NCBI RefSeq assembly: GCF_000425045.1
Contig: NZ_AULA01000011.1
Span: 1-60,245 of the forward strand
From: Acidaminococcus intestini DSM 21505
Lineage (GTDB): Bacteria > Bacillota > Negativicutes > Acidaminococcales > Acidaminococcaceae
DNA length: 60,245 nucleotides
Reading direction: 5' to 3'
How positions within the stretch are numbered: the first letter of the stretch is position 1; every line of letters starts with the position of its first letter. This document shows, one piece after another, positions 14,475 to 24,410 of the stretch. The translations under genes were made by a program, and so were the position numbers. Below the pieces are notes generated by a model. The model was not told the origin of the DNA and searched no databases. It was given only the letters and a program-made list of their open reading frames with translations.

Positions 14475-15779
14475 TTATTTAATGAGGGCACCAAAGAGGA
14501 TGGATCCGATGATCAGGACGATACCGCCGCCCAGACGGCTGGACAGCTGGGCATAGGCGATGAGGCCCATACGATGGGAAGCACCCAGTACAGCAAGGTC
14601 GCCGGAACCGCCGCGGTTTGCCATGCAAAGACCAGCGGTGATGGCAGAGTCGATGGGATAGAAGCCAACGAGCTGACCGACGATTGCGGAACCGATGATG
14701 GCGCCGACAACAATCAGGAAGGCGATGACGACGTTGCTGAGGTTGATGGCATCAATCAGCTGGTTCAGGTCCGTATCGGCACCAACGCCGACCATGATGA
14801 TGAGAACGAGGCAGGAGCTCATGAAGGACTGCAGACGTTTAGCTGCTGCTTTTGTTGCGTTCGGGACAATCCCCGTCATGGCTGCAATGGTAACGATGAT
14901 GATCATCCAAGCAAAGGGATGAATGGCAACACCGAAGACTTTCGGCAGGATGGCTTTACCCATGAGACGGCCGGCTGCATAGAAGCCAACGCCCATGAAG
15001 AAGGCACCGCCCATTTCCTTGATGGAAGGAATGGCATCGTTCTTTTCCGCTTCGATATCAAGGCCGGTACGGATCAGGGTGTTGCCGTCGCCGGTGAGCT
15101 GCGGATGTTTATGACCGATCTGGTTCAGGATAGCCGCCGTCAGGATGGCGAAGATGTTCGCAATGGTCAGGATCGTAATGGCGAAGGTGTAGTAGTTGGC
15201 TGCCTTGTCGCCCGTTACGGTCTCATAGATCTGGGAAAGCGGTACAGCACCGGCACCGTTGCCGCCGCCCATGATGGGAAGGACATAGTTCAGAAGGATC
15301 ATATCCGGGGCAATGCCAAAGACGAGGCCGCCGGCAACTCCGAGCACGGCCGCGCCGATGAGGCCGCCAAAGATGGCAGGCAGATACCCAGCGAAGGATT
15401 TCAGCAGGAGTTTCTTTTCCAGACCAAGAATGGAACCACAGATCAGGAAGACAATGAAGAAGCTCAGGAAGTCAGCTTGATCCATGACCATGCCAACGGC
15501 TTTGGCATATTTGGCGGGAACCATCTTATTTGTAAACAGATAAGCCGAAACGAGGAAGGTCAGAACGAGACCGCCGCCGATATAGGAATTCCAGAAGGGG
15601 ATGCGTTCACCGATTTCGTTGCAGATAATACCGAGGGCCAGCATGAAGGCAAAACCACCAGCAAGATCAGTGCTTAGGGAACCGGTCATAACACCTGCGG
15701 CCACAATGATGATGAAGCCGAGGCAGAGGGGCCAACTAAGGCCGAAGGGGGTGAAACTTTTCTTTTTTTCGTCGCTCAT
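14475..15779 (-). CDS. 2-hydroxycarboxylate transporter (CitS/CCS family)
   Basis: 434-residue secondary transporter of the CitS type, which brings in citrate, malate or lactate-like hydroxy acids with sodium or by exchange. Both re-entrant-loop signatures are present: GGGNGAGAVPLS around residue 195 and NRGGSGDLAVLGASHRM around residue 393, the latter followed by the substrate-binding arginine region. About 11 hydrophobic helices are visible. ATG 15779 is preferred because AAAGGAG precedes it; the frame extends 24 codons further upstream without conserved content. The citF-like gene downstream points to citrate as substrate, but malate cannot be excluded. A palindromic operator lies about 350 bases upstream. 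Confidence 0.88.
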   Translation of the reverse strand: MSDEKKKSFTPFGLSWPLCLGFIIIVAAGVMTGSLSTDLAGGFAFMLALGIICNEIGERIPFWNSYIGGGLVLTFLVSAYLFTNKMVPAKYAKAVGMVMDQADFLSFFIVFLICGSILGLEKKLLLKSFAGYLPAIFGGLIGAAVLGVAGGLVFGIAPDMILLNYVLPIMGGGNGAGAVPLSQIYETVTGDKAANYYTFAITILTIANIFAILTAAILNQIGHKHPQLTGDGNTLIRTGLDIEAEKNDAIPSIKEMGGAFFMGVGFYAAGRLMGKAILPKVFGVAIHPFAWMIIIVTIAAMTGIVPNATKAAAKRLQSFMSSCLVLIIMVGVGADTDLNQLIDAINLSNVVIAFLIVVGAIIGSAIVGQLVGFYPIDSAITAGLCMANRGGSGDLAVLGASHRMGLIAYAQLSSRLGGGIVLIIGSILFGALIK

Positions 15780-16296
15780 GATTGGACTCCTTTCGAAACT
15801 TGAATGGCTTTTGGGATGTGAAGGGGCAGGGGACAGCTGTCCATTTGTCACGCGCTTTCGTCAGGACCCGTAAAAAATAAAATGGCGGTCCGATGACAGT
15901 GGGCCCAAGGGAAAGGCGTGGCGCCGTTTCACATTCGCAAAAAGGGGCGCGGGCGACCCCGCAGCCAAGTGAAGGTGATACTGTTCTCAAATCCTTCACA
16001 ATTGAATCCTATCATAGATTAGGTGGACTTTCAAATAACAAGTTTTAAATATAAATAATAAGAAAAACCCTATGAAATGGCTGAAATCCTTGTAATCATG
16101 CGGTATATGGACGACGACGGTAAAATTCAAATTTTACTGAAATTAAAATAGTTGTTTTAAATTATGGATACTTGATTTGATTTTTGAAAAGAAACGTTAC
16201 GGTAATCAAGAAAAAAGAGCGGGAAAGGCGTTATTTTGTCTTTCACCGGTTCCCATATGCTTTTGTCCATTGGCAGCTTTTCACCAATCCTTCCGC
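15780..16296 (-). other. Intergenic control region upstream of the hydroxy-acid carrier
   Basis: About 520 bases without a convincing gene. The half next to the carrier is GC-rich. The half from 16000 to 16200 is strongly AT-rich and contains the palindrome at 16120. It looks like a regulated promoter region for the carrier gene. Confidence 0.5.
16120..16137. promoter_or_regulatory. Candidate operator GTAAAATTCAAATTTTAC
   Basis: A perfect 8-base inverted repeat with a two-base centre in an AT-rich stretch upstream of the CitS-type carrier. The form suits a dimeric regulator, for example of the GntR or response-regulator type seen with citrate genes. No such regulator gene lies beside it, so the protein is unknown. 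Confidence 0.5.
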
Positions 16297-19558: not shown

Positions 19559-19586
19559 TTGACACATTCCAATTCTGTGGTATACT
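19559..19586 (+). promoter_or_regulatory. Promoter of the T-box/TRAP operon
   Basis: TTGACA at 19559-19564 and TATACT at 19581-19586, 16 bases apart, directly before the T-box leader. This is the best housekeeping-type promoter in the window. Confidence 0.85.
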
Positions 19587-19599
19587 TGCGTCAATACAA

Positions 19600-19837
19600 T
19601 TTTTACAAGCAAAAGGTAATGATCAGGAATAGCATGAACGATGAAGCTAAGAGAGCTGCCGGGTGATGCGAGGCAGTGCGGATAGGGCATGCTTCTCACC
19701 TGTAAACCCCTTATCTGAAGGGCCGCGTCCCCTAGGGTAAGGCGCTATGGATGCGTTATAAGGCCAAGAGTACAATGGTAGGGTGGTACCGCGAACCAAC
19801 GCCCCTGCTGGAGAAGATCCAGCAGGGGTTATTTTTA
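19600..19837 (+). promoter_or_regulatory. T-box riboswitch leader controlling a TRAP transporter
   Basis: The T-box hallmark AGGGTGGTACCGCG lies at 19780-19793, where the TGGT would pair with the ACCA end of an uncharged tRNA (discriminator base A). Upstream is a Stem I region with AGAGAG, a CTGCC/GGCAG stem around GGGTGATGCGA, and outer arms AGCATG/CATGCT. Downstream is a terminator CCCCTGCTGGA/TCCAGCAGGGG with T run (19802-19837). The specifier codon could not be fixed by eye. CTC (Leu), just after the CATGCTT arm at about 19695, fits a discriminator A, but other readings are possible. The leader ends 61 bases before dctP. Confidence 0.9.
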
Positions 19838-19897
19838 TGTTGCAACTATGGATACAGTATACAGCGGCCTTGCCAGTGTGGAACAAGGAGGAAAACG

Positions 19898-20923
19898 ATG
19901 AAAACGAGGAAGATGATGAAAGTGATGACGGCAGCCTGTCTGGCGGTCCTGATGACAGCCTTTGCGGGGTGCGGCAAAAAGGAAGCAGCCACAAGCGGTC
20001 AAGGCGGCAAGATCGAGTACAAGCTTGCCTATCATCTGCCAGCGGACCATCCCCTGGCAAAGGGTGTCGAATCCTTTATCCAGAAGGTGAAGGAAAAGAC
20101 CCATGGCGAGGTGACGATTACGGCCTATCCGGCAGGGCAGCTCTATAACGACAAGAGCATGAACGATGCCATCATGACAGGCGGTGTCGATATGGGCCTT
20201 AATACGGTGGGTCGCTGGGCGACGGTGGTGCCTGCTATGGAAGTCTTTGATGTGCCCTTTGTATTTCCTAGCTACGAAAAAATCGATCAGGCCATCGATG
20301 GAGGCATGGGCAGGACCCTTGCTGATGAACTGGCGAAAAAGCATGTCAAGGTCGTCTATTGGGCGGACTACGGTTTCGTCCAGTTTGCCAATAACAAGAA
20401 GCCTATCCAAAAGCCGCAAGATTTTGAGGGCCTGAAGATCCGTGGTTACAGCGAAATTGCGTCGGAAACCATCAAGGCCCTCGGCGCATCGCCCGTGACC
20501 ATGGGTTCTGCAGAAGTCTATATGGCTATGCAGCGTGGCACCATTGATGGACAAAGTTCCGGCACGAGCGCCATGCGGGACCGCAAAATCCACGAAGTGG
20601 CCAAGTATCTCACCGTGACGAACCATGCATCGCCGGAATTCATTCTCGCCATGAACGACCGCTCCTTTGCCAAGATGAGTAAGGAGCAGCAGGATGCCTT
20701 TATGGAAGCGGCGAAGGAAGTGCAGGAAGAGACCCGAAAAAATGCGAAGGCCATGGATGAAAAGGGACTGGCGGACCTCAAGGCCAAAGGCATGGAAATC
20801 TACGTAGTCCCTGAAGATGAACTGATTGCTTGGCGCAAGGCGACAAAGTCCGTTTGGGATACGTTCCTGAAGCATACGGGTTCGATTGGCAAAACGGTCC
20901 TTGATATGGCCGTAAAAGTCTAA
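19898..20923 (+). CDS. dctP: TRAP transporter substrate-binding lipoprotein (DctP family)
   Basis: 341-residue extracytoplasmic solute-binding protein of a tripartite (TRAP) carrier. It has an N-terminal lipoprotein signal with lipobox AFAGC, so it is probably membrane-anchored outside the cell. The family's ligand-contact arginine lies in FEGLKIRGYSEIASETIKALGASPVTM, with YMAMQRGTIDGQSSG after it. AAGGAGG precedes ATG 19898. It is the first gene behind the T-box and shares an operon with dctQ and dctM. TRAP systems usually take carboxylates. Control by uncharged tRNA suggests an amino acid, keto acid or other amino-acid-related substrate here. Confidence 0.93.
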   Translation: MKTRKMMKVMTAACLAVLMTAFAGCGKKEAATSGQGGKIEYKLAYHLPADHPLAKGVESFIQKVKEKTHGEVTITAYPAGQLYNDKSMNDAIMTGGVDMGLNTVGRWATVVPAMEVFDVPFVFPSYEKIDQAIDGGMGRTLADELAKKHVKVVYWADYGFVQFANNKKPIQKPQDFEGLKIRGYSEIASETIKALGASPVTMGSAEVYMAMQRGTIDGQSSGTSAMRDRKIHEVAKYLTVTNHASPEFILAMNDRSFAKMSKEQQDAFMEAAKEVQEETRKNAKAMDEKGLADLKAKGMEIYVVPEDELIAWRKATKSVWDTFLKHTGSIGKTVLDMAVKV

Positions 20924-20943: not shown

Positions 20944-21465
20944 ATGCAATCTATCTTTGCTGTCTATAACAGGATCCTTGAAAAAGTGACAAATTTTACA
21001 GCCGTCCTTGCGGGCATCCTGCTCTTTGTCCCTGTTTTCTCGATTTTTTATGAAGTCGTATCTCGCGGGCTTTTCAATGAACCGACGGAATGGGCCACGG
21101 AGCTATCTACCTACTGCGTCCTCATGGCGGGATTTTTAGGCATGGGGGAAGCCCTGGCCCGGGGTCGCCATATCCATGTTGATATGATGATTTCCCATTT
21201 GCCTCAAAAGACAAATGAAGTCCTGCGCATGGCCGTCTCTATCATTTGCATGATTTTTACAGTCATTTTCTGCTATACATCGGCCCAAATGGTCTATACA
21301 TCCTATGACCTTGACATGGTGGCGGCAAGTACGCTGCGCATGCCCTTGTGGATTCCCCAGCTGTCCATGCCCATTGGGATCGGGGTCCTGTTCCTGCAGT
21401 TTGTCCGCCTCTTTGGCGAATCCGTTCTGGCCTACCGTAACGAGAAAGGAGGAAAGGCCGCATGA
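20944..21465 (+). CDS. dctQ: TRAP transporter small permease (DctQ family)
   Basis: 173-residue membrane protein with four helices, the usual size for the small TRAP permease that pairs with DctM. The recognisable DctQ block is SRGLFNEPTEWATELSTYC, followed by GMGEALARGRHIHVDM. It starts 20 bases after dctP with GGGAGG as ribosome site, and its last bases overlap the dctM start (ATGA), so the two permease subunits are probably made in equal amounts. Confidence 0.92.
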   Translation: MQSIFAVYNRILEKVTNFTAVLAGILLFVPVFSIFYEVVSRGLFNEPTEWATELSTYCVLMAGFLGMGEALARGRHIHVDMMISHLPQKTNEVLRMAVSIICMIFTVIFCYTSAQMVYTSYDLDMVAASTLRMPLWIPQLSMPIGIGVLFLQFVRLFGESVLAYRNEKGGKAA

Positions 21466-22739
21466 TTGTCATCTTTACCTTTGCCTTACTGGTGCTTCTT
21501 GCCATTGGCGTTCCTGTGGCCTTTTCCTTGGGTGCGTCGGGTCTTTTGGGCATGGTGCTTTTTATGCCCGGTGACGGCGCCCTGGAGCAAATTCCCATCC
21601 TGGCCTATAAGGCTCTCGATGATTTTGTCCTCTGCGCCGTGCCGCTTTACATCCTCATGAGCGCCATTTTGCTCAAGGGAAAGGTCGGGGAAGACCTTTT
21701 TGACCTGGGCAATAAGTGGCTGCGGCATCTGCCCGGCGGCCTTGGCATTGCGACGATTGTCGCCTGCGGCATCTTTGCCGCGATTACAGGTTCCAGTGTG
21801 GCCTGCGCGGTCACAGTCGGAGCCATTGCCATTCCGGAAATGCTGAAACGGGGCTATGACCGGTCCGTTGTACTGGGCGCCGTGGCCGGCGGCGGAACGC
21901 TGGGTATCCTCATTCCGCCGTCCATTCCCATGATCCTTTATGGGTCCATTACGGGTGAATCCATTGGCCAGCTTTTTATGAGTGGTGTCCTTCCCGGCGT
22001 GCTCATGACGGTCTTTTTCATTTTTATCGTCGTCTACCGCTCCCGTCATTTGAAGCTTGAAAAAAAGGCGCCCCTTTCCGAACGCTTTGCTGCCCTGAAA
22101 GGGTCCATTTGGGGACTGCTCCTTCCTGTCATCGTTGTGGGCGGCATCTATACGGGGGCTTTTACGCCGACGGAAGCAGCTGCTGTCGGTACGGTCTATG
22201 CCCTTTTCATCACCTTTGTGATTTACCGGACCCTTTCCGTAAAGGACCTGCCGGGCATTCTCATGGAGACGGTGGGAACGTCGGCCATGATCTTTGCCAT
22301 TATGATCGGTGCGTCCCTCTTTGGCTTTGTTCTCACCATTTTGCAGGTGCCCCAAGCCCTTACGATGATGGTTGCCGAAGTGGAAGTGAGCCGCTGGGTC
22401 TTTTTCATTCTGATCAATCTGCTCCTGCTCTTTTTGGGCTGCATCCTTGAAACCGTCTCTATTATCTTTATCACGGTGCCCATCTTATACCCCATCATCA
22501 AACAGTTGGGTTTTGATCCCATTTGGTTCAATGTCGTGATGCAGATCAACATGGAAATGGCCCTTATCACGCCGCCCGTAGGCATGAACCTTTTTGTCCT
22601 CAAAGGCGTCAGTCCCGAGAGCCGCATGGAAGACATCATCCGCGGCGTCATTCCCTATATCGGTGTCATGGCGGTAGAAATCCTCTTCCTCTGCTTTGTT
22701 CCAGAACTTGCTACGTGGCTTCCAAGTGTCGTTAAATAA
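21462..22739 (+). CDS. dctM: TRAP transporter large permease (DctM family)
   Basis: 425-residue membrane protein with about 12 helices that forms the sodium-dependent transport channel of the TRAP system. Typical blocks are IAAITGSSVACAVTVGAIAIPEM and GGGTLGILIPPSIPMILYG (split here over residues 100-170), and the C-terminal ITPPVGMNLFVLKGV. The start overlaps dctQ by four bases. Length and motifs are complete. Confidence 0.93.
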   Translation: MIVIFTFALLVLLAIGVPVAFSLGASGLLGMVLFMPGDGALEQIPILAYKALDDFVLCAVPLYILMSAILLKGKVGEDLFDLGNKWLRHLPGGLGIATIVACGIFAAITGSSVACAVTVGAIAIPEMLKRGYDRSVVLGAVAGGGTLGILIPPSIPMILYGSITGESIGQLFMSGVLPGVLMTVFFIFIVVYRSRHLKLEKKAPLSERFAALKGSIWGLLLPVIVVGGIYTGAFTPTEAAAVGTVYALFITFVIYRTLSVKDLPGILMETVGTSAMIFAIMIGASLFGFVLTILQVPQALTMMVAEVEVSRWVFFILINLLLLFLGCILETVSIIFITVPILYPIIKQLGFDPIWFNVVMQINMEMALITPPVGMNLFVLKGVSPESRMEDIIRGVIPYIGVMAVEILFLCFVPELATWLPSVVK

Positions 22740-22804: not shown

Positions 22805-23452
22805 ATGGTCATGCTGTCATTTGAAAAGGAACGGAACCGCAAAGTAGCGGAAAAAGTGATCAAGGGACTCCAAAGCCGCAATATGGAAGGCTATTTTGTA
22901 GAAACAAAGGACGAAGCCCTAGGCCTTGCTTTGGACCTGATTCCCAAAGGTTCAAGCGTCAGCTGGGGCGGGACCTATTCCATTGAGGAAATCGGACTCA
23001 AGGAAGCCCTGATCCAGGGGCAGTACACGGTTTATAACCGGGATACGAAAAAGACGCCCGAAGAAAAGCGGGAGATGATGCTGAAAGCCCACAGCTGCGA
23101 TACCTTTCTATCAAGTACGAATGCCATTACGGAAGATGGCGTCCTTGTGAACCTTGACGGGAATTCGAACCGCGTTTCCTGCATTGCCTACGGTCCGAAG
23201 CAGGTCCTTATGATTGTCGGTATGAACAAGGTGACAAAGGATGTGGAACATGCTGTCTATCGGGTCAGGAACGTTGCGGCCCCAATCAATGCCCAGCGCT
23301 TCCCAAATGGAAAGACTCCGTGCAAGGTGAATGGAGCCTGTGCCGACTGCAAGTCGCCTGATACCATTTGCTGCAATCTCCTTGTGACGCGCTTTTCCCA
23401 GGAAAAAGGCCGGATCAAGGTAATCTTGGTGAATGAGGCGCTTGGGTTTTAG
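22805..23452 (+). CDS. LUD-domain protein (LutC/DUF162-like)
   Basis: 215-residue soluble protein of the LUD family, related to the LutC part of lactate oxidation systems and to stand-alone proteins of unproven function. Family features are VSWGGTYSIEEIGLKEAL near residue 53 and the TEDGVLVNLDGNSNRVS block. The C-terminal GKTPCKVNGACADCKSPDTICC holds five cysteines and could bind an iron-sulfur cluster or another metal. It follows dctM after 65 bases with its own TATAAT-like element (22764-22769), so it may belong to the TRAP operon or be transcribed alone. A role in oxidising a hydroxy acid imported by the TRAP system is plausible but unproven. Confidence 0.8.
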   Translation: MVMLSFEKERNRKVAEKVIKGLQSRNMEGYFVETKDEALGLALDLIPKGSSVSWGGTYSIEEIGLKEALIQGQYTVYNRDTKKTPEEKREMMLKAHSCDTFLSSTNAITEDGVLVNLDGNSNRVSCIAYGPKQVLMIVGMNKVTKDVEHAVYRVRNVAAPINAQRFPNGKTPCKVNGACADCKSPDTICCNLLVTRFSQEKGRIKVILVNEALGF

Positions 23453-24410
23453 GGCGGAGCATACATCGCTCCGATTCCCCATAAGGGTGTGCCCCCATTG
23501 TTTGCTTCCTGATCTTAACGAGGTAATGGAGGATGACGATACGTCATCTGAACCGAATTCGCAAAAAGCACTTGGAAGAAAAGACCGGAACGTCGGGCAA
23601 GAACCGCCCTCCTCATCCACCACCCACGTCCGCAAGCAAGCCTTTTTGGTGGATACCCCGTCTTGGTAAGGCGGAACGGCTTTCGCCGTTTCCAAGGCGA
23701 AAAAACGAAGGGAAAAACGCAGAGCCAAAAGACCATAACGCAAAAGATTGTAAGGCAAAAGAACACAAGGTAAGCCCAAAACCGAACGTAGAGATAGGTT
23801 CGGTTTTGGGCTCTTATCTTATATTCGGTTTTTGTAAGAAGCGGGTCTTTTTGAAACGTAGGAAGCACAATGGCAGTTGCTGGAACGTCCTTCGACCGGT
23901 CTTTTCCCTTAGAACTCGATGCGCAGCATCGATCCGCCTTTGCCAAGGCGGGGGACCGAAACGGCCAGCCTTACGTATTTAAAATTAAAGGCTGGCCGTT
24001 TTGGTGGTGGATGAGGAATGCCAGTGAGGTATCCTTGCGAGCGGTTAGCGAGGCAGATTCGCCCGGAGTTTCGAAGGACGCTTTTAAAGCGATAGCGGAA
24101 GTCTGAGAAACATGTCCCTGGGCGAATTAAGTTTGGACCCGTCCCCCGTTAGGGGGCGGTTTGGGTCCGGCGTCACATGTGCCAATGAGTGCCTTAAAAG
24201 ACCATAGCGCACGGCGCCAAACCACCCTCCTCATCCACCACCCACGCCCGCAAGCAAGCCTTTTCGGTGGATACCTCGCCTTGGTAAGGCGGAACGGCTT
24301 TCGCCGTTTCCAAGGCGAAAAAACGAAGGGAAAAACGCAGAGCCAAAAGATCATAACGCAAAAGATTGTAAGGCAAAAACACGGAGGCAAAAGATTGTAA
24401 GAGAGCGGAT
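23453..24410 (+). repeat. Mosaic intergenic repeat, copy 3 with internal duplication
   Basis: Nearly 1 kb with no convincing gene. It opens four bases behind the LUD stop codon with head hairpin CGGAGC-atacatc-GCTCCG. It holds the GCCCAAAACCGAAC/GTTCGGTTTTGGGC stem (23774-23811) and the GATGCGCAGCATC stem. A copy-specific hairpin (GGCCAGCCTT/AAGGCTGGCC, 23963-23998) comes next, then the TTTGGTGGTGGATGAGG block and the GTCCCCCGTTAGGGGG hairpin region. A segment of about 150 bases at 23607-23758 recurs almost unchanged at 24226-24376, and again at 30166-30320. Confidence 0.78.
23773..23812 (+). repeat. Conserved GCCCAAAACC-type hairpin (example copy)
   Basis: AGCCCAAAACCGAAC pairs perfectly with GTTCGGTTTTGGGCT around a ten-base loop. 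Counterparts occur at about 3266-3306 (minus), 30331-30368, 41729-41768 and 48361-48398. In each, the outer GCCC/GGGC is kept while inner positions vary, mostly with pairing maintained. The trailing CTCTTATCTT is only moderately T-rich. Confidence 0.75.

Follow-up and report, generated by a model that had tools for sequence, protein, structure and literature searches.

The TRAP operon and its leader

The window analysed here is a stretch of 60,245 nucleotides from Acidaminococcus intestini DSM 21505, and it carries on the forward strand a TRAP transporter operon preceded by a leader of the T-box type. The gene dctP (19898-20923) encodes a TRAP solute-binding lipoprotein of 341 residues (PF03480, 271.5 bits), dctQ (20944-21465) the small membrane subunit (PF04290, 93.7 bits) and dctM (21462-22739) the large membrane subunit (PF06808, 368.3 bits); all three products score above the Pfam cut-offs, and the three TRAP subunits lie together. 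The region described in an earlier note on this DNA ends at the dctP stop codon (20923), and dctQ and dctM continue the operon to 22739. A gene for a stand-alone LUD-domain protein follows dctM (22805-23452, forward strand). A terminator-like site was not found on the forward strand in the gap between dctM and the LUD gene, which is possibly co-transcribed with dctPQM; the LUD gene was not seen as a recurring TRAP neighbour in the relatives' gene orders examined. Beyond the LUD gene and ahead of the genes that come next, a 159-nt sequence occurs as two direct copies (23602-23760 and 24220-24378) with 96% identity and a spacing of 618 nt; it may be a repeat that is dispersed in this genome. A few kb from the TRAP operon, on the reverse strand, is a gene for a CitS-like 2-hydroxycarboxylate transporter (14475-15851; 553 bits against a cut-off of 600).

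A promoter-like site of the sigma-70 type (19559-19586, forward strand) with TTGACA and TATACT 16 nt apart matches 11 of the 12 consensus bases. Downstream of it, the RF00230 covariance model matches the forward strand at 19610-19809 across all 219 model positions (74.5 bits, E 2.2e-16), and a whole-genome T-box search returned the RF00230 match at the same place. Because 74.5 bits falls below the Rfam gathering score of 93 bits, the T-box is missing from the default scan of the window, in which a tRNA was the sole entry; the orthologous leaders above 93 bits score 96.6, 95.1, 94.6 and 93.4, and the remaining ones lie below. In the Rfam alignment the leader has a Stem I with AGAGA, a GGTG apical motif and a specifier loop. 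The apical hairpin of Stem I occupies 19655-19677 (19655-19660 paired with 19672-19677), the lower Stem I helix flanking the specifier pairs 19624-19627 with 19699-19702, and Stem III spans 19709-19742 (19709-19716 with 19735-19742). The T-box sequence, AGGGTGGNACC, is present within an antiterminator (19780-19806, from the Rfam alignment and pair counts) that competes with a predicted intrinsic terminator hairpin and U tract (19801-19829), some pairs of which show double changes. A motif search places the T-box sequence at 19780-19793 as AGGGTGGTACCGCG, which was found once in the window with up to two mismatches against a shuffled mean of 0.13. Bases 19800-19806 of the antiterminator overlap the 5' arm of the terminator, and the two folds are therefore mutually exclusive. 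The earlier note had claimed a Stem I and a downstream terminator, and the full-length model match, the valid Stem I and the terminator-like hairpin at 19801-19829 bear this out.

The genome of 2.28 Mb contains 13 T-box matches in total. The genes behind the other 12, as read from translations, are ilvD, valS, leuA, metA, ilvC, pheS, ileS, a methionine-type ABC transporter, thrS, a serA-like gene, trpE and glyQ. The TRAP operon is the exception among the genome's T-box targets.

Covariation of the leader structure

We compared the leader structure across an alignment (A2) of 37 of the 48 motif-bearing leaders, 11 being omitted as near-copies or because of awkward inserts. Over 25 counted pairs, standard pairs made up 98.4% of cells, compared with a mean of 83.0% in 500 shuffles, and 17 of the pairs showed changes on both sides. 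None of the 500 shuffles reached the paired-cell or covariation score and two reached the count of 17, the slid-column control leaning in the structure's favour because the structure was partly derived from the same alignment. Double changes occurred in nine of ten Stem I pairs, i.e. in all six pairs of the apical hairpin, where 100% of cells were paired, and in three of four pairs of the lower helix; Stem III showed them in seven of eight pairs with 97.3% of cells paired. The antiterminator hardly varies among the 37 leaders (double changes in one of seven pairs), and the comparison adds little there. A further helix, in which the specifier region pairs with the T-box sequence (columns 118-123 and 243-248), came out of RNAalifold; it contains no double-change pair and conflicts with the T-box fold, and it was rejected and left out of the 25-pair count.

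These results bear on the possibility that the leader is functionless, either a degenerate T-box or a chance resemblance to one. Such a reading would agree with the window copy scoring under the Rfam gathering score; against it stand the E value of 2.2e-16, the recurrence of the T-box motif ahead of these genes at 48 of the 73 loci, and the covariation of Stem I, Stem III and the terminator, so that we find it barely credible. A chance motif is rejected by the same E value, by the covariation in orthologues and by the single occurrence in the window compared with 0.13 in shuffles. The leader is almost certainly a real T-box.

Specifier and matching tRNA

The earlier note had offered CTC (Leu) as one possible specifier, to be fixed by folding with the covariance model, and this fold puts the specifier on CUC at 19695-19697, followed by the bases ACC. 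The UGGU bulge (19784-19787 in the Rfam alignment) is complementary to the tRNA 3' end ACCA. Its earlier reading as the mark of a tRNA with discriminator A agrees with the genome's own tRNA-Leu(GAG), which ends in CAACCGC-A-CCA, i.e. carries discriminator A, and adjoins a tRNA-Leu(CAG). With a CUC specifier, and UGGU set against ACCA, codon and discriminator therefore both point to tRNA-Leu(GAG).

In the 37 aligned leaders the specifier column reads CTC in 34 and GTC in three, while the flanking bases vary: the base 5' of the triplet is T in 28, A in four, C in three and G in two, and the base 3' of it is G in 19, A in 17 and C in one. Other specifier frames were rejected on this contrast. The full set of 48 leaders comprises 41 with CTC, three with CTG (also Leu) and four with GTC (Val); in two genomes (G031 and G237) an upstream GTC was also picked up, and the CTC in conserved context was taken as the specifier. 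In the part of the TBDB paper that we draw on (PMC7778990), CUC accounts for a fraction of 0.77 of Leu specifiers. We are highly confident that the leader is leucine-specific.

Distribution across the class

Of 380 genomes of the class, 73 encode a DctP orthologue at a threshold of E <= 1e-75. A T-box motif immediately precedes dctP, or a lyase gene in front of dctP, in 48 of the 73. The other 25 comprise five loci cut by a contig end, one (G317) with the motif further upstream, and 19 without a motif, absence being defined as no motif within 700 nt upstream. In one of the five cut cases (G030) a T-box motif and a lyase gene were found near the end of another contig. The T-box fold, the conserved order and the 48 loci together back the earlier proposal that dctPQM is under tRNA-sensing control, as far as sequence and comparison can indicate.

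Eighteen of the 19 motif-free orthologues belong to a single family (f20) and the other is in genome G010; the loci without a motif include those of Mitsuokella multacida, M. jalaludinii, Selenomonas montiformis, S. ruminis and S. ruminantium WCT3. The covariance model likewise detected no T-box in G010 or in the eight of the 18 motif-free f20 loci that were given to it. G010 (L052 10486-10700, reverse strand) keeps the order lyase-dctPQM and has a hairpin with a U tract in front, without a T-box by motif or model, and is perhaps a natural loss of tRNA control. In a phylum-wide sample, four of 398 genomes matched at E <= 1e-60, the source genome included, and all are of the same class. A tree of DctP, built from 69 of the 73 proteins after four rows shorter than 200 residues had been dropped, shows the Leu T-box on both deep sides and a single Val clade (support 100/100), and is consistent with an old T-box-TRAP association followed by losses in family f20. 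Three genomes of another family, f32 (G327-G329), nest among the Acidaminococcaceae rows of this tree, as if the module had been transferred as a whole.

The named carriers of the motif include Succiniclasticum ruminis (L123), Phascolarctobacterium faecium (L077) and Schwartzia succinivorans (L097), all of which are succinate fermenters. Together with the naming of the DctP family after C4-dicarboxylate uptake, this would suit an importer of a C4-dicarboxylate such as succinate that is under leucine control by happenstance, as a growth gauge. However, such an importer would make coincidences of two results, namely the restriction of the specifiers to leucine and valine and the joining of the transporter genes to leuACDB described below, and we consider it improbable.

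A lyase gene beside the transporter in relatives

In 24 of the 73 loci, the gene immediately preceding dctP encodes a lyase. Among the 22 such loci that could be tested, 21 are under a T-box, 20 of them directly and one (G317) through the leucine operon, the exception being G010; conversely, 28 of the 48 T-box loci have no adjacent lyase. The nine lyase proteins examined have 287-316 residues and are sequences of the ICL/PEP-mutase superfamily with the catalytic K-R/K-CGH motif. Their best match in the PDB is petal death protein, at 259.4 bits compared with 190.1 for the next entry, and petal death protein was again best in two further searches (258.8 versus 202.5 and 233.4 versus 190.4); against the NCBIfam model for methylisocitrate lyase it reaches 288 bits, short of the cut-off of 354.4. 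Petal death protein is a lyase of 2-alkylmalates and oxaloacetate. The relatives' enzyme is therefore petal-death-protein-like in sequence, and we infer that it is a candidate 2-alkylmalate lyase.

The window operon itself has no lyase, and its genome has only a 37% homologue elsewhere. No lyase match was obtained in the four T-box-bearing genomes of family f20. In genus g17, which includes Succiniclasticum ruminis, lyases of 54-56% occur in another gene block, and none of the five loci examined there has a T-box motif in front. Lyase paralogues were also seen in other settings. In G032 (L153 6923-7795 and 5200-6882) a paralogue of 76% is followed by genes read as those of an IlvD/Edd-like dehydratase and an ABC transporter; the 284 bases remaining before the contig end contain no T-box motif. 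In G325 a paralogue belongs to a run behind a T-box whose specifier was read as AUG (Met) (L237 7774-4328, reverse strand), in the order NlpA-type lipoprotein, ferredoxin-like protein, unknown protein and lyase.

The lyase also bears on the chemical nature of the substrate. The ICL/PEP-mutase superfamily acts on hydroxy or oxo acids and not on amino acids, and the ligands of the named solved DctP-family members are mostly organic acids. Both points argue against import of leucine (or valine) itself, in the manner of other T-box-controlled permeases. That would be the simplest reading of the specifier, and the portion of Wels et al. 2008 (PMC2494555) used here describes APC and NSS permeases with a Leu T-box, but we judge it quite unlikely for this transporter. 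The structure of DctP does not decide the matter: its AF2 model (mean pLDDT 74.9) matches solved TRAP solute-binding proteins with a best Z of 28.2, and dozens of them do so at near-equal scores in Foldseek and VIA-align, so that the ligand cannot be read from it. The residues after a DG in DctP are QSSG or QTSG in 15 of the 19 orthologues aligned (QISG in three, LTSG in one), in contrast to QENP or AENP in the three solved relatives that we compared.

Links to leucine and valine synthesis

In genome G317 a Leu T-box (87.5 bits, CTC) heads a same-strand run of leuA, leuC, leuD, leuB, lyase, dctP, dctQ and dctM, the largest gap between leuA and dctP being 41 nt. LeuC and LeuB score above their NCBIfam equivalog cut-offs (TIGR02083, 679.8 versus 610.65; TIGR00169, 498.3 versus 353.2), LeuD is slightly under TIGR02084 (242.3 versus 245.85) and passes TIGR02087, and the family scan of leuA covered its C-terminal part. 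In a congener (G316) the contig is cut at the lyase. In this one genome the gene order thus ties the TRAP-lyase set to leucine synthesis, apart from any argument based on the specifier.

Genus g91 provides a second link. The TRAP leaders of all four of its DctP-carrying genomes (G321, G324, G325 and G326) read GUC (Val) at the position where relatives have CUC. Its lyase genes are located away from the TRAP operon and have a GUC T-box of their own in each of the three genomes examined (G321, G326 and G325). GUC stands on both the TRAP leader and the lyase leader, and transporter and lyase thus appear to have switched amino acid together. The lyase leaders of this genus contain a second T-box/terminator module in tandem behind one Stem I, with the motifs 81-87 nt apart (L235 5705-6118, L236 6192-6618 and L238 5504-4929); in L236 the Rfam match is placed across the second module. 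The syntheses of leucine and valine share 2-ketoisovalerate, which fits a cleavage of 2-isopropylmalate; an importer that takes up a 2-oxo acid directly fits as well.

Such an importer would bring in a branched-chain 2-oxo acid, 2-oxoisovalerate or 2-oxoisocaproate, a few steps from valine or leucine. This would account for the Leu and Val specifiers alike and for the 28 T-box loci without an adjacent lyase, and TRAP proteins that bind 2-oxo acids do exist, TakP being one. It leaves the lyase unexplained, however, both as a frequent companion of the transporter and as a bearer of the same changed specifier in g91, and we regard it as unlikely, with some real chance of being right.

Proposed mechanism and substrate

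Taking the results together, we propose that the operon encodes an importer under tRNA-Leu control whose substrate is a carboxylate of the leucine/valine pathway, a reading based on regulation and gene order to which we assign a probability of about 70%. From what is established for T-boxes, switching would be tRNA-dependent and would proceed by transcription antitermination, and the structure is backed by comparison. When uncharged tRNA-Leu(GAG) builds up, the CUC specifier would pair with its anticodon and the UGGU bulge with its ACCA end; with the tRNA bound, the antiterminator would fold and RNA polymerase would transcribe into dctPQM, while with ample leucine the terminator would fold instead. 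The transporter would then import a carboxylate feeding the leucine/valine branch.

The earlier note had concluded that the substrate is an amino acid or a close relative. The relation between substrate and amino acid is strengthened by the Leu T-box and leuACDB run of G317, whereas "amino acid" is better replaced by "probably a carboxylate", because a gene resembling an alkylmalate lyase often accompanies the transporter. Weak points of the carboxylate reading are the 18 orthologues of family f20 without the switch, the T-box loci that have no lyase and the lyase paralogues in other settings.

Judged from context, the lead candidate for the ligand is 2-isopropylmalate, a substituted malate, although we put its chances at somewhat less than even. 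Imported 2-isopropylmalate could be converted to leucine by LeuC, LeuD and LeuB, and the relatives' lyase could cleave it to 2-ketoisovalerate and acetate. This cleavage would waste a leucine precursor, so the step would suit valine starvation better than leucine starvation. A more speculative extension, which we hold at odds well short of even, is a dedicated salvage system of the Negativicutes in which a TRAP transporter for extracellular 2-isopropylmalate, gated by tRNA-Leu (by tRNA-Val in one genus), is coupled to the lyase; the lyase would convert the acid back to 2-ketoisovalerate, and a single imported compound would supply leucine as well as valine. In the genomes of the window's family (n = 59, some incomplete), LeuA_dimer was found in 52, leuB above its cut-off in 50 and ilvC in 43. 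Because most of these genomes have leuA, leuB and ilvC, import need not be essential, and auxotrophy as the reason for uptake is not supported.

It is difficult to tell from its sequence what a TRAP transporter carries. The conserved Leu switch, the joining to a leucine operon in one genome and the change from Leu to Val shared with the lyase narrow the substrate of this one to a short list. Should isopropylmalate or a branched 2-oxo acid prove to be the substrate, bacteria of gut and rumen, Phascolarctobacterium and Succiniclasticum among them, would take up pathway intermediates, and such uptake, if it occurs, would be a possible form of cross-feeding.

Comparison with known systems

No TRAP operon under T-box control is named in the titles and opening lines of abstracts that the literature search returned, or in the portions of PMC3766115 and of the TBDB paper (PMC7778990) that it covered; it did not extend to the Vitreschak 2008 and Gutierrez-Preciado 2009 surveys or to the TBDB table, which may include such entries. 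In the sections of Wels et al. 2008 (PMC2494555) that we draw on, T-box-controlled transporters belong to the MFS, APC, NSS, DAACS, LIVCS, NhaC and ABC families. There, as here, a T-box gates uptake and hints at the substrate; TRAP is absent from the seven families that those sections name. The same sections term the associations between T-boxes and transporters very species-specific, whereas the present T-box-TRAP association extends over several families of the class.

The sequences EDQVWPK-R/K-CGHM and NMIEGG-R/K-TP are common to petal death protein and the relatives' lyase. The lyase differs from petal death protein and other ICL/PEP-mutase lyases (1zlp, 3fa3 and 1mum) in being bacterial and in lying beside a TRAP operon, its activity being putative.

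The leader itself is closest in design to the Leu T-box of leucine biosynthesis (Bacillus subtilis ilv-leu type), with which it has in common the CUC specifier, the UGGU bulge and the terminator/antiterminator pair; leuA of the source genome also has a T-box, with a specifier read as CTG (Leu). Unlike the ilv-leu type, the leader in the window targets a TRAP transporter and not biosynthesis genes, a synthetase or an amino-acid permease, and what sets this operon apart from other DctPQM TRAP transporters is the predicted control of its leader by a tRNA.
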